Source: Bacteroidetes bacterium HGW-Bacteroidetes-7
GTDB taxonomy: Bacteria > Bacteroidota > Bacteroidia > Bacteroidales > UBA932
Reading direction: 5' to 3'
Length of the DNA: 64,000 nt
Assembly: GCA_002842465.1 (NCBI GenBank)
Contig: PHDA01000002.1
Span: 1 to 64,000, forward strand
Shown here: positions 26,533-44,286 of the stretch, piece after piece
Layout of the letters: every line of letters begins with the position of its first letter
How positions within the stretch are numbered: position 1 is the first letter of the stretch
Made by a program: the position numbers and the translations under genes
The notes under the pieces: model-generated
The model's database searches: none
What the model was told of the DNA's origin: nothing
The model's input: only the letters and a program-made list of their open reading frames with translations

Positions 26533-26826
26533 CTATTTATCTCTTTTCTTCTCTTTAACTTTTACCAATAAGTCTTTGAGCACATCTATGCATTCTACTG
26601 TGGCATCCTCAAATTTGGCGGCATGCCTTTCTACTACCAGTTCGCTTCCCGGTATAAAAACCATCATCTTGACATTTTTGTTTTCGTAATCAGGCAGCAG
26701 ACTGAGTATTACCTCAACATTTATAATTTCGTCATAAAACTTTGGAAGCTTTGCAAGCTTCTTTTCGATGTACTCGATAAGTTTGTTGTCTGCATTAAAC
26801 TTGAGTGATTGAATCCTGATGTCCAT
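26533..26826 (-). CDS. hpf: Ribosome hibernation-promoting factor, short form
   Basis: The 97-residue S30AE-domain protein begins MDIRIQSLKFNADNKLIEYI and has the beta-alpha-beta-beta-beta-alpha pattern of HPF/YfiA. The long-HPF C-terminal dimerisation domain is absent. It binds the decoding centre and anti-SD region of 30S in resting cells. It has a strong SD (26831-26839) that overlaps the xerC stop codon, unusual in a phylum where SD use is rare. It lies downstream of xerC and rpsU, as in many Bacteroidota. Confidence 0.93.
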   Translation of the reverse strand: MDIRIQSLKFNADNKLIEYIEKKLAKLPKFYDEIINVEVILSLLPDYENKNVKMMVFIPGSELVVERHAAKFEDATVECIDVLKDLLVKVKEKKRDK

Positions 26827-26827
26827 G

Positions 26828-27730
26828 TTAACCTCCTTTTTTTGCTCTTGGATGAGCGGTTAAAAAAACTTTTTTGAGCTGCTCGAAAGAGTTATGCGTA
26901 TATATCTGAGTGGCAGCTAGCGAAGAGTGCCCTAAAACCTCCTTGATGCTGTTGAGGTCTGCACCGTTATTTAGAAGGTGGGTCGCAAAAGAGTGCCTTA
27001 GCATATGCGGGCTTTTTTTACCGGTAAGCCCTTTAACTCCTCCGAGTTCTTTTCGTACTACTTTATTAACAAACGACAGATACATTGGTTGCCCTGTGTC
27101 TGTTAAAAAGAGATAATTCCCGGGATTATTAGTATAATACTCCCTGAATAACTTATTATATGATTCCAGATTGTTTGCCAACGAGTTGGTAATTGGGACC
27201 TCTCTGGTCTTATCACCCTTTCCTGTAACTCTGAAAAGAGCCCTTGACTTGTCCCAGTCTGCTAATTTCAAATTGGCAAGTTCGGCTCTTCTGATACCTG
27301 TACAGTAGAGAACTTCTACAATAATCCTGTCTCTGACGGCAAAGAAATCATCTTGATCAATCTGACGGTTAAAATACTCATCAATTGAGGCTAAAGTGTA
27401 AAACTCCGGCAACTTTGATGGTTCTTTGGGACGGATTATTTTTTTTACGGGATTACTTTTAAGAAAGCCTCTTTTGATAAGATAGGTACAGTAGCTGCTG
27501 ATTGCAGAAAGTTTGAGATTCATGGTTCTTGCACTCAGTCCGGAATCAAGACCGTTTGCAATGAACCCTCTTACAGAATGCATAACAAGAAAATTCTCCT
27601 CATCCTCCCCCTCTTGCGGAGCAATATATTTATATAGCTCATTAATGCTTTCACTGTAAATATCCAGTGTCCTGGGGGAGTATCTCTTCTGTACCCTCAA
27701 ATAATCTATAAATAACTCCTGTGGTCTCAT
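26828..27730 (-). CDS. xerC: Tyrosine recombinase XerC/XerD
   Basis: This 300-residue recombinase has an N-terminal SAM-like core-binding domain (1-90) and a catalytic domain with R147, K171, H242, R245, H268 and nucleophile Y277 (motifs TGKGDKTR, PHMLRHSFAT, GHSS, QIYTH). XerCD resolves chromosome dimers at dif. Whether it is XerC or XerD is not certain; XerC is favoured by the rpsU-xerC-hpf order typical of the phylum. An intrinsic terminator sits between rpsU and its start, leaving about 18 bases for any promoter of its own. Confidence 0.93.
   Translation of the reverse strand: MRPQELFIDYLRVQKRYSPRTLDIYSESINELYKYIAPQEGEDEENFLVMHSVRGFIANGLDSGLSARTMNLKLSAISSYCTYLIKRGFLKSNPVKKIIRPKEPSKLPEFYTLASIDEYFNRQIDQDDFFAVRDRIIVEVLYCTGIRRAELANLKLADWDKSRALFRVTGKGDKTREVPITNSLANNLESYNKLFREYYTNNPGNYLFLTDTGQPMYLSFVNKVVRKELGGVKGLTGKKSPHMLRHSFATHLLNNGADLNSIKEVLGHSSLAATQIYTHNSFEQLKKVFLTAHPRAKKGG
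26831..26839 (-). promoter_or_regulatory. Strong Shine-Dalgarno of hpf, inside the xerC 3' end
   Basis: The minus strand reads AAAGGAGGT, 4 bases before the hpf ATG. It encodes the last xerC codons (Lys-Gly-Gly) and the start of its stop. Most genes in the window have A/T-rich leaders without such a match. Confidence 0.65.
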
Positions 27731-27748
27731 ATTCGCATCTAATTTAAT

Positions 27749-27783
27749 AAAAAAAACGACATCCTGTACTAAAACAAGATGTC
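27749..27783 (-). terminator. Intrinsic terminator after rpsU, before xerC
   Basis: On the minus strand a 9-base stem (GACATCTTG with CAGGATGTC, one G-U pair) with an 8-base loop is followed by a run of 8 T. It lies between the rpsU stop and the xerC start, so it should limit read-through into xerC-hpf. Confidence 0.7.
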
Positions 27784-27812
27784 ATTTTCTCTAATATTTT
27801 GTGCTTCTAAGA

Positions 27813-28004
27813 CTACTCTTCGTTAAGACGGAGAGACTGAACATAGATGGCTTTTTTCACCTCATCGCGTCTCTTCACTGACTTCTTTACATAAGTCTTC
27901 CTGCTCCTCATTTCGCGAATGGTTCCTGTCTTTTCAAACTTGCGTTTGAATTTCTTAAGAGCTCTTTCAATGTTTTCGCCCTCCTTGATTGGTACTATGA
28001 TCAT
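27813..28004 (-). CDS. rpsU: 30S ribosomal protein bS21
   Basis: The 63-residue protein has the bS21 features: a start MIIVPIKEGENIERALKKFK and a basic helix ending in VQSLRLNEE. It sits near the 3' end of 16S rRNA. In Bacteroidota ribosomes, bS21 with bS18 and bS6 holds the anti-SD sequence away from mRNA. The gene has an exceptionally good SD, which fits the published model that bS21-deficient ribosomes translate rpsU preferentially. It heads the rpsU-xerC-hpf group and has its own promoter and terminator. Confidence 0.97.
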   Translation of the reverse strand: MIIVPIKEGENIERALKKFKRKFEKTGTIREMRSRKTYVKKSVKRRDEVKKAIYVQSLRLNEE

Positions 28005-28012
28005 ATCTACTA

Positions 28013-28022
28013 CACCTCCTTT
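28013..28022 (-). promoter_or_regulatory. Extended Shine-Dalgarno of rpsU
   Basis: The minus strand reads AAAGGAGGTG, ten bases complementary to the conserved 16S 3' tail (CACCUCCUUU), with 8 bases to the ATG. It is the longest anti-SD match I noticed before any gene in the window. Confidence 0.8.
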
Positions 28023-28032
28023 TGTTGGGCTG

Positions 28033-28040
28033 CAAAAGTA
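28033..28040 (-). promoter_or_regulatory. Bacteroidota -7 promoter element for rpsU
   Basis: The minus strand reads TACTTTTG, an exact TAnnTTTG match, 28 bases before the ATG. A TTG lies about 20 bases upstream at the -33 position. Confidence 0.6.
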
Positions 28041-28083
28041 ATTATATTTTTCTTATCCGACAATAGATAAGCACTTTTTTTGT

Positions 28084-40124: not shown

Positions 40125-41465
40125 TTAATATTTGAGCCATTTTATAAGATCTTTCCAGTTTGCCTTTTTACCGTACATCAGGATTCCTACTCTGTAAATT
40201 TTTGCAGAGACAAAGGTCATGAAGATAAACGTTCCAACCAGCAAAGCCAGCGATAGTGCAAGTTCCCAGGCAGGGACCCCAAAAGGGACTCTAGCCATCA
40301 TAACCATAGGAGAGGTAAAAGGTATCATTGAACCCCAGAACGAAAGTGAACTGTCCGGATACTGGAATGTGTGAATCATTATAAAGAGACCAATAATAAG
40401 TGGTAGCGTCACAGGTAGAATCAGTTGCTGTGTGTCTGCTTCGTTATCCACTGCTGACCCTACTGCCGAGAAGAGTGCTGCGTAGAGCAGGTATCCCAAA
40501 AGGAAGTAAAGTATAAAGGCTGTTAGAATTCTGGCTATTGGAACATTTGCCAATGAGGCCATTATGTTATCCATTGGGGTAGATTCTGCAGTGATTGACG
40601 TAATTGCATCAGTTGCGGTCTGCCCGGCAGCCATCTGCTGTACTAGTTCGTTGCTCTCTGTCAGTTTATCGGCACCCATTATTGCCTGTGCACCAAAAAT
40701 TATACCTCCTGTCAGGACTATCCATATAAGAAATTGAAGAAGTGCTACCGAACCAACTCCAAGTATTTTACCAAGCATCAGTTCAAACGGCTTAACCGAA
40801 GATACGATAACCTCTACAATTCTTGTTGTCTTCTCTTCAATAACCCCTCGCATAACCATTGAGCCAAACATGAAAATGAACATATAAATCATAAAGCTGA
40901 GAATATAGGCTATGCCCATGTAGAGCTCAACCATACCCTCTTTCTCCTCTCCGGATTCCGATATTGTGAAGGTCTTAACCGACACATCCGTGCGAATATC
41001 CTTAAGAATATTATCAAGGTTTTCTATGTCGTATTTTTCAAGCTTACTCTTCTCCATTGCCTTCTGGACATTTCTCTCAATCTGTTTCTTTGTATCAATA
41101 TTCATCTGCTTTGTAGAGATGGTAGAAACAGATACGTTAAACATTGAGTCCGGAGCAGAAATTTCAACTGCTGCATATAGACTTTCAGGAAAATCTTTTT
41201 TAATTGACTCTATGTCAGCATTTTTATCAAACAAGTAGGTGTACTCTTCGCTATTTTCGAAAAATGGCTGGCAAAGCTCCGACCTGTCAATAACCAGAAT
41301 TTTTTGCCCTTTATTACCTGATGACAACGTCATTATCAGTGATGGCATCACAATAAGAGCAGCAAATAAAAGGGGGGTAAGAATTGTCATTATGATGAAT
41401 GACTTTTTTTTAACACGTATTAGAAACTCACGTGATATAATCAGAAAAAGCTTATTTGTTTTCAT
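40125..41465 (-). CDS. ABC-2 type exporter permease (NatB-like)
   Basis: The 446-residue permease has one N-terminal membrane helix (about 22-46), a large extracytoplasmic domain (about 47-180) and then five to six helices with EEKTTRIVEVIVSSVKPFELMLGK, the NatB/ABC-2 signature. It pairs with the ATPase whose stop lies 14 bases upstream. An SD-like AAAGGAGG precedes the ATG. The family exports sodium, drugs or lipids, and substrate is unknown here. Confidence 0.9.
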   Translation of the reverse strand: MKTNKLFLIISREFLIRVKKKSFIIMTILTPLLFAALIVMPSLIMTLSSGNKGQKILVIDRSELCQPFFENSEEYTYLFDKNADIESIKKDFPESLYAAVEISAPDSMFNVSVSTISTKQMNIDTKKQIERNVQKAMEKSKLEKYDIENLDNILKDIRTDVSVKTFTISESGEEKEGMVELYMGIAYILSFMIYMFIFMFGSMVMRGVIEEKTTRIVEVIVSSVKPFELMLGKILGVGSVALLQFLIWIVLTGGIIFGAQAIMGADKLTESNELVQQMAAGQTATDAITSITAESTPMDNIMASLANVPIARILTAFILYFLLGYLLYAALFSAVGSAVDNEADTQQLILPVTLPLIIGLFIMIHTFQYPDSSLSFWGSMIPFTSPMVMMARVPFGVPAWELALSLALLVGTFIFMTFVSAKIYRVGILMYGKKANWKDLIKWLKY

Positions 41466-42435: not shown

Positions 42436-43536
42436 TTATCTAAAATATATCCTTAGAATATTATATAACTCGTTTTTTATTATGTTTTTCACTAACAGCT
42501 CTGTAATTGAGATTTTTTGCCCCTGATTTCTTTCAATATATCTTATTATTGATCGTGCCATGTACGAACCTATATAGGGATTTGAAGCTAGTTGTGAGTA
42601 GGTGGCAGTGGTGAGATCGCGTTTTTCAACCTTTGTAGTGTCAACAAAAATATTTCCGGCAAACATCATAAATCTCACAGAGTCAATGCCCGTAATTTCA
42701 GTTAATTGACCGGGATGAACGAATCCCCCCAGCCTTTCACGGTATCTAAGAATCTTTGATGCGTAGTATGGTCCAATTCCCTTAAGTTTAGTAAGATCTG
42801 CTGAATCTGCACCATTCAACTCTAAAAGAAATTCCTCTTCTTTCCATTGTCTTCCAACATTTTGATATATTCCGGCTGATGCAAAATTTGCCTCAGATTG
42901 ATTAAATTCTTTTCCAGACTGTTTTGAATTATTCCCAGAGTGCTTGATATTTTCCGCTGATTGCTTAATAATAATGTAGTCCTGTACCTTTGAATAGAGT
43001 TGGTCGCTTACTGAGTAAATTTTTCTAAAATCCTCTTTGTCTCTGAATACTCCTCCCTTAGATCTGTAATTAATTACAACATTTGCTTGCTTTTCTGTCA
43101 TGCCCAAACGGGTTAGTTCCACTAAGGAGACGGTGTTGGGGTCAAATAGGAAAAGTTCTGCAACAGCTCCATTTGCAGAAGGTTGCATTGAACTTTTGCT
43201 GTTTTTTTCTAATGAATTTAATTTGTTATCAGTTGAATTGTTTTGAGCTGAATTATTGTGAGTTGATCTGTTGTAAGTTGAAGTTTCGTAACTGGGTTTT
43301 GAATCATTTGATAAGCCAGAACCTATATTGTGACTAACTGATCTGTTCTGAGTTGTTTTGAACTGACTTGATCTGACGTTTCCGGACTGCTCTTGATTTT
43401 GGGTTGCTAATGATTTGCCCGAGCTATCACTATTACCCGCAGGCCTAAATAGAAAAATTACTGTCTGTAAAAACAGGATAGTGACAATGAGTACCAGGAC
43501 TCCCGATAACTCCTTTGATGCAATTCTTTTCTTCAT
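42436..43536 (-). CDS. ComEA-like membrane protein with three HhH regions
   Basis: The 366-residue protein has an N-terminal membrane helix (about 11-30), then a low-complexity Asn/Ser/Thr/Gln segment (about 35-120). Three HhH units follow: FDPNTVSLVELTRLG (near 132), LNGADSADLTKLKGIGPYYA (near 232) and a divergent one near 300-366. A second Ser/Gln/Asn-rich linker separates the first two. ComEA-type HhH proteins bind incoming DNA at the inner membrane. Many Bacteroidota carry such a protein, but competence is not proven. An SD-like GGAGGAGG precedes the start. Confidence 0.82.
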   Translation of the reverse strand: MKKRIASKELSGVLVLIVTILFLQTVIFLFRPAGNSDSSGKSLATQNQEQSGNVRSSQFKTTQNRSVSHNIGSGLSNDSKPSYETSTYNRSTHNNSAQNNSTDNKLNSLEKNSKSSMQPSANGAVAELFLFDPNTVSLVELTRLGMTEKQANVVINYRSKGGVFRDKEDFRKIYSVSDQLYSKVQDYIIIKQSAENIKHSGNNSKQSGKEFNQSEANFASAGIYQNVGRQWKEEEFLLELNGADSADLTKLKGIGPYYASKILRYRERLGGFVHPGQLTEITGIDSVRFMMFAGNIFVDTTKVEKRDLTTATYSQLASNPYIGSYMARSIIRYIERNQGQKISITELLVKNIIKNELYNILRIYFR

Positions 43537-43587: not shown

Positions 43588-44286
43588 TCACTCCTCCTCC
43601 TGCTGCCTTGACTCTTTTCTTTTTGCAGAGACTACAATTACAATTTCACCCTTGGGTTCATTTGCCGTGTACCAGTTGGCAAGTTCTATAAGTGTACCCC
43701 TCCTGTTCTCTTCGTGAAATTTTGATATCTCTCTTGAGACTGCTGCCTCTCTCTCCCCTCCCAGAAATTCGGCCAGTTGCGAAAGAGTCTTAACCAAACG
43801 GTATGGTGATTCGTAGAATATCATTGTCCTGGGCTCAGCTGCCAGCTCTTTAAGGCGGGGCTGACGTCCCTTTTTCATTGGTAAAAACCCTTCAAAGCAG
43901 AATCTGTCTGCCGGGAACCCTGAGTTTACAAGCGCCGGAACAAATGCTGTTGCACCAGGTAATGTTTCAACCTCAATGCCCCTTTCACGACACTCTCTGA
44001 CAAGCAGAAATCCAGGATCAGAAATACCGGGGGTACCGGCATCACTTATCAGAGCTATATTCATACCTGAAAGAATCTTCTCAACCACCTTCTCAACACT
44101 TTTGTGTTCATTGTATTTATGGTGAGACTCCATATGAACACCAATCTCATACCTCTTCATAAGGGTGCTGCTTGTACGGGTGTCCTCTGCCAAAATAAGG
44201 TCAGCCTCCTTAAGAACCCTGATGGCCCTTAGAGTGATATCTTCGAGATTGCCTATTGGTGTTGGCACTATGAAGAGTTTAGCCAT
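43588..44286 (-). CDS. rsmI: 16S rRNA (cytidine1402-2'-O)-methyltransferase
   Basis: The 232-residue tetrapyrrole-methylase-fold enzyme 2'-O-methylates C1402 in the 30S P site. It has LFIVPTPIGNLEDITLRA, ILAEDTRTSSTLMKRY, ALISDAGTPGISDPG, LPGATAFVPALVNSG and FEGFLPMKKGRQ. This order is diagnostic of RsmI. A strong SD-like AAGGAGGAGG lies 4 bases before the ATG. The first 8 bases overlap the end of the upstream gene. Confidence 0.96.
   Translation of the reverse strand: MAKLFIVPTPIGNLEDITLRAIRVLKEADLILAEDTRTSSTLMKRYEIGVHMESHHKYNEHKSVEKVVEKILSGMNIALISDAGTPGISDPGFLLVRECRERGIEVETLPGATAFVPALVNSGFPADRFCFEGFLPMKKGRQPRLKELAAEPRTMIFYESPYRLVKTLSQLAEFLGGEREAAVSREISKFHEENRRGTLIELANWYTANEPKGEIVIVVSAKRKESRQQEEE

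Follow-up and report, generated by a model that had tools for sequence, protein, structure and literature searches.

Autoregulation of the small-subunit ribosomal protein bS21 by ribosomes that lack it has been shown experimentally in Flavobacterium johnsoniae, where Tyr54 of the protein stacks on A1534 of the 16S rRNA (McNutt et al. 2023, PMC9976891). In Chryseobacterium and its kin, the Shine-Dalgarno sequence (SD) of rpsU, the gene encoding bS21, is reported to covary with an anti-SD reading UCUCA, and SDs of -7 to -14 kcal/mol are reported ahead of rpsR in Bacteroidales (both Jha et al. 2021, as cited in PMC9976891). Here we analyze the rpsU gene of Bacteroidetes bacterium HGW-Bacteroidetes-7, a member of the Bacteroidales, within a stretch of 64,000 nucleotides referred to below as the window (assembly GCA_002842465.1, contig PHDA01000002.1, positions 1 to 64,000). 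We consider it probable that the rpsU leader is a functional extended SD allowing ribosomes with a free anti-SD to translate bS21, as a lineage-specific case of the known autoregulation. Use of this SD in pairing appears well supported by sequence comparison; the feedback loop would operate by analogy with F. johnsoniae. As in that species, the pairing of the extended rpsU SD exceeds -13 kcal/mol in strength, SDs are scarce in the genome, Tyr54 is present and close relatives have the canonical CCUCC anti-SD. Unlike F. johnsoniae, the organism belongs to the Bacteroidales and its family has a U1543 16S tail with a matching leader base.

The rpsU leader and its genomic background

The minus-strand rpsU leader ends in TTGCAGCCCAACAAAAGGAGGTGTAGTAGAT, immediately followed by ATG. 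The first-pass annotation, made from the sequence alone, had described ten bases complementary to the 16S tail located 8 bases before the bS21 start. This 10-mer, AAAGGAGGTG, is indeed present with the ATG 8 nt further on, and the complementarity extends to 12 contiguous nt with the tail of close relatives. Pairing amounts to -18.6 kcal/mol with the tail of two near-identical relatives (G509 and G530) and to -16.1 kcal/mol with a generic tail. The 10-mer occurs in three copies in the 2.39-Mb assembly, the two copies other than that of rpsU lying within coding sequence.

The genome was sampled through the window and 20 further stretches, covering 457 kb. Among 101,462 segments of 26 nt taken on both strands with a step of 9, the rpsU SD displays the top energy, and a chance match was rejected on this basis. 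It also surpasses the first-ATG leaders of all 367 sampled genes, the runner-up reaching -14.6 kcal/mol; these gene starts are first-ATG guesses for open reading frames (ORFs) of at least 100 codons, and rpsU, hpf and rpsR, which stand outside this set, were scored separately. At -8 kcal/mol or below, 27/367 gene leaders are found versus 26/364 mock regions, and at -10 kcal/mol or below a small excess appears (14 genes versus 6 mock regions). The earlier description of the genome as mostly SD-free is thus borne out, and the many equally strong SDs envisaged at that time as an objection were not encountered, since no first-ATG leader of the sample equals that of rpsU. A candidate start in L241 at -18.3 kcal/mol is seen only when all possible starts within the first 120 nt are admitted; it was discounted as a gene leader, a likelier ATG being located about 40 nt further on.

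The four genes previously listed as controls with SD-like leaders do possess them: hpf (-14.8 kcal/mol), an rsmI-like gene (-14.6), a ComEA-like gene (-13.7) and an ABC permease gene (-12.0), the last three lying in one region (Table 1). Four ribosomal protein genes only were located, with leaders at -18.6 (rpsU), -12.3 (rpsR), -10.9 (rplI) and -0.8 kcal/mol (rpsF). The rpsR value falls within the published Bacteroidales range and here stands beside a stronger rpsU SD.

On the protein side, Tyr54 is found in bS21 of 72/72 members of the window's family and in 83/83 sequences from other Bacteroidales families. The closest chains to bS21, bS18 and bS6 of the window genome are those of 9i5v, then those of 7jil, the F. 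johnsoniae ribosome, and the alignments of bS18 and bS6 with the corresponding 7jil chains, taken as whole-protein matches, cover nearly the entire proteins. These data bear on a simpler explanation, in which the SD would provide rpsU with strong constitutive initiation by all ribosomes, with no bS21 feedback. Strong SDs raise translation generally, and rpsR, hpf and rsmI-like genes of this genome also carry SDs. However, there is no genome-wide SD excess at -8 kcal/mol or below and the tyrosine of the pocket is conserved; both features argue for a tail that is ordinarily masked, as it is in F. johnsoniae, and we hold constitutive initiation to be unlikely.

Under the preferred bS21 autoregulation, the 16S tail of complete ribosomes would be kept within the platform pocket by bS21, bS18 and bS6, and most mRNAs would start without an SD. 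A 30S subunit devoid of bS21 would have a free tail, able to form a 12-bp helix with the rpsU mRNA, and bS21 would be made by such subunits until the shortage is filled. The earlier proposal that the same autogenous loop operates in this organism stands in the part accessible to sequence comparison, namely the SD and its strength beyond -13 kcal/mol, its conservation in one family, its match to that family's changed 16S tail with its intact anti-SD, Tyr54 and the SD-poor genome. The other part of the proposal is carried over from F. johnsoniae and would apply here by homology: sequestration of the tail, the preference of ribosomes devoid of bS21 for rpsU, and the resulting feedback.

Conservation of the signal and the 16S rRNA tail

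The first-pass annotation overlooked both the Bacteroidales identity of the organism and the confinement of the contiguous SD to one family of the sampled order. Among the best 80 bS21 relatives in the named collection, which are mostly Bacteroidales or Bacteroidia, the nearest five are 89-95% identical and all belong to these taxa; Ca. Cryptobacteroides and Ca. Coprenecus, both placed under Bacteroidales in the NCBI taxonomy, figure among the matches. The window's family is labelled f1, which we take to be GTDB family UBA932, and genera are designated by g numbers. Inside f1, 63/72 rpsU leaders pair at -17.2 to -19.7 kcal/mol (20 genera); the 72 include some from near-identical genomes, and the corresponding count for distinct leaders is 58/67. 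The concern that the SD might not be conserved in relatives therefore does not hold inside the family. Among the named loci, 58/80 rpsU leaders are at -13 kcal/mol or below. GGAGG was found in 0/83 rpsU leaders from 63 other Bacteroidales families, and 3/83 reach -13 kcal/mol with bulges allowed (f86, f51 and f27). The contiguous extended rpsU SD is limited, within the sampled Bacteroidales, to the window's family. As a positive control, 37/40 leaders from other orders of the class could be read and 6/37 reach -13 kcal/mol, four families at -17 to -21 kcal/mol and two at -13.6 and -13.9 kcal/mol.

The f1 16S tail, GGAACACCUCCUUUUU, carries U1543 in 13/13 genomes with a readable end (8 genera), and the CCUCC anti-SD is intact in all 13; they include G509 and G530, which have exactly the rpsU leader of the window. 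An aberrant 16S copy in G525 (L311), attributed to contamination, was excluded. Other Bacteroidales with a readable 16S end display UUUCU, that is C1543, in 18/18 families. The f1 leader base opposite 1543 is A in 58/60 leaders with a clean core; because position 1544 faces an A in just 51/97 distinct leaders, A-richness alone fails to explain this preference. Outside the order, for which leaders only were considered, position 1543 faces G in each of the four strong leaders, and A and T in the two weaker ones. As in Chryseobacterium, a change in the 16S tail goes together with an rpsU leader that fits it. Unlike Chryseobacterium, where the anti-SD core itself changed, CCUCC is kept here and a flanking base differs (1543 in f1, 1533 in a second clade presented below).

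Within the 11-nt core, 12/15 departures from the consensus are A-to-G substitutions, with G-U pairing retained, and the remaining 3 disrupt a pair, a pattern matching what selection on pairing would predict. A chance or inherited A/G-rich leader without function could be invoked since the leaders are A-rich (39% A). Nevertheless, the window's SD is the best of all the segments scored, the core is kept in 97/127 distinct leaders (family and named loci together) and its changes mostly preserve pairing; we regard a functionless leader as very improbable. As a separate observation, GGGGG replaces GGAGG in the rpsU leaders of L052, L060, L061, L064, L066, L075, L078 and L341, giving a G-U pair with U1537.

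Several points weigh against bS21 autoregulation in this lineage. McNutt et al. 2023, whose survey was made on complete genomes, state that no Bacteroidales meets their two criteria for autoregulation of rpsU (PMC9976891). The window genome's own 16S is absent from the assembly. The SD is absent from 9/72 f1 leaders (8/8 in g213 and 1/1 in g227), and the rpsU leader of L012 (Ca. Coprenecus) has a broken core, GTAGG for GGAGG, at -10.9 kcal/mol, its relatives keeping GGAGG; the loop would thus be dispensable. A single event probably accounts for the change at 1543, and one identical substitution in related genomes makes up 8 of the 12 G-U changes, so that the counts are not independent. Finally, rpsR, hpf and other genes carry SDs and the response would therefore not be limited to rpsU. 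This last feature differs from F. johnsoniae, in which rpsU is the only gene with an obvious SD.

Concerning g213, a 16S match was obtained in 0/11 assemblies, and the anti-SD of this genus may be altered. In a tree of the recombinase encoded next to rpsU, g213 branches beside other SD-bearing genera and g224-like rows fall outside, with weak support (96/79, 95/72).

Interrupted rpsU signals and the hpf leader

In fifteen families other than f1 (16/83 leaders), the rpsU SD is long and broken up by single-nt bulges or a mismatch, as exemplified by AGAAAG-a-GAG-a-GTATT and AAAGG-t-AGGTATT (families f2, f4, f6, f13, f27, f40, f49, f51, f86, f94, f99, f101, f102, f103 and f119). With a U1533 tail and bulges allowed, these leaders score -11.1 to -17.6 kcal/mol, at most 2/200 shuffles being as good (z -3.6 to -7.8, statistics inflated by shared descent); a gap-free scan of the same leaders gives -3.9 to -12.0 kcal/mol. 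To our knowledge, the published scanner free_scan allows no bulges. The position and kind of the interruption vary between families and the arms stay. Second genomes of five families brought support in f103, f51, f13 and f101 and weak support in f119 (6/200 shuffles as good). The interrupted leaders would constitute a putative second long SD form, overlooked by gap-free screens. Such interrupted SDs are carried by the rpsU leaders of L183, L196, L199, L210, L213, L214, L216, L218 and L235, in a second clade of Bacteroidales families. Three f21 leaders, at z -3.0 to -3.8 but pairing weakly (-4.9 kcal/mol), were left out of this group.

The 16S tails read in six interrupted-SD families all carry U1533, and these families form one clade in the 16S tree (97/97), in which base 1533 is included among the 1,522 columns. 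The idea that purine-leader families have an altered anti-SD core was rejected, since CCUCC is present in six of them. The U1533 tail was assumed for the other nine interrupted families, of which f27 and f101 pair better with C1533. Opposite U1533, the leader base, assigned by visual inspection, is A in 7/10 leaders from the six families; in f1, which has C1533, it is G in 97/97 distinct core leaders. The interrupted signal was found in 0/17 leaders from 10 C1533 families outside f1, and in 0/2 plus 0/1 more leaders of f24, in which U1533 is independent. In three families outside the order (L388, L404 and L419), the GGAGG of the rpsU leaders is followed by GGTAT instead of GGTG, from which U1533 is predicted for their 16S tails.

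Two genes downstream of rpsU, the hpf leader reads AAAAAAAGGAGGTTAAC, followed by ATG. Among distinct Bacteroidales hpf leaders (from L002-L081, L146-L175 and L318-L344), 63/77 contain GGAGG in their last 16 nt, versus 0/77 for a mock region. Outside f1, the hpf SD is present in 37/41 leaders, in families whose rpsU leader is without GGAGG. It is missing in g213 (0/6; L323, L329, L331, L340, L343 and L344), where the rpsU SD is likewise absent, and in g224-like f1 members (0/3), which retain the rpsU SD. Literature searches, at the level of their listings, turned up no paper on hpf SDs in Bacteroidetes or on bulged rpsU SDs, and the word hpf is absent from the main texts of PMC9976891 and PMC8710568.

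These SDs raise the question of a broader response, triggered whenever the 16S tail is set free by loss of bS21, bS18 or bS6, of which rpsU, rpsR and hpf would be joint targets. The strength of the rpsR SD, the recurrence of the hpf SD and the rpsR SDs that PMC9976891 mentions in Bacteroidales speak for it. However, the window's hpf SD overlaps the end of the recombinase gene and may serve reinitiation, an alternative reason for its existence, and g224-like members keep the rpsU SD without that of hpf; we find such a joint response distinctly unlikely. Returning to bS21 autoregulation, a further proposal, which we consider possible but doubtful, is that of a small Bacteroidales SD regulon (rpsU, rpsR and hpf) read by free-tail ribosomes, through which incomplete ribosomes would make their missing parts and a parking factor. 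The rpsU signal would then come in two forms, tuned independently of each other and fitted in each case to a base change of the 16S tail: a contiguous one of 12-14 nt (f1, U1543) and one deliberately interrupted in the GGAGG core by one or two single-nt bulges or mismatches (15 other families, with U1533 in the six whose tails were read).

Genomic setting and implications

Table 1. Coordinates of rpsU, its putative signals and other genes of the window
Feature	Position	Strand	Basis or score
rpsU, ribosomal protein bS21, 63 aa, Tyr54 present	27813..28004	-	ORF, Pfam PF01165, E 1.3e-17
Extended SD AAAAGGAGGTGT, 12 contiguous nt pairing with the family 16S tail, 7 nt 5' of ATG	28012..28023	-	-18.6 kcal/mol
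TACTTTTG, resembling the TAnnTTTG promoter box; TTG 20 nt upstream at 28061-28063	28033..28040	-	sequence versus consensus
Terminator-like 20-bp hairpin and U run directly after rpsU	27748..27793	-	-23.6 kcal/mol, z -6.4
Tyrosine recombinase, XerC-like, next gene	26828..27730	-	PF00589, PF02899
hpf, ribosome hibernation factor (Ribosomal_S30AE)	26533..26826	-	PF02482
hpf SD AAGGAGGT, within the recombinase 3' end	26831..26838	-	leader -14.8 kcal/mol
rsmI-like gene	43588-44286	-	TP_methylase
ComEA-like gene	42436-43536	-	HHH_3 protein
ABC permease gene	40125-41465	-	

TAnnTTTG is the consensus of the Bacteroidetes promoter box. Because a box resembling it is located just upstream, the rpsU mRNA is probably short and may start close before the SD, which would place the SD near the 5' end. 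The hairpin that follows the gene suggests a mostly monocistronic rpsU mRNA. A scan with consensus sigma-70 promoter and terminator models returned nothing for rpsU.

The mechanism itself is already known, and the novelty lies in its likely presence in Bacteroidales, as opposed to the published statement, in the matching 16S change and in the leads offered by hpf and the interrupted SDs. Few clear examples of specialized bacterial ribosomes exist, and those lacking bS21 are one of them. That a large Bacteroidales family, most of it uncultured, possesses the rpsU signal shows that the loop need not be absent from the order, and the corresponding 16S rRNA change makes it possible to test the pairing by natural covariation. 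Should hpf belong to the same set of SD-bearing genes, the state of ribosome assembly and ribosome hibernation would be directly linked.
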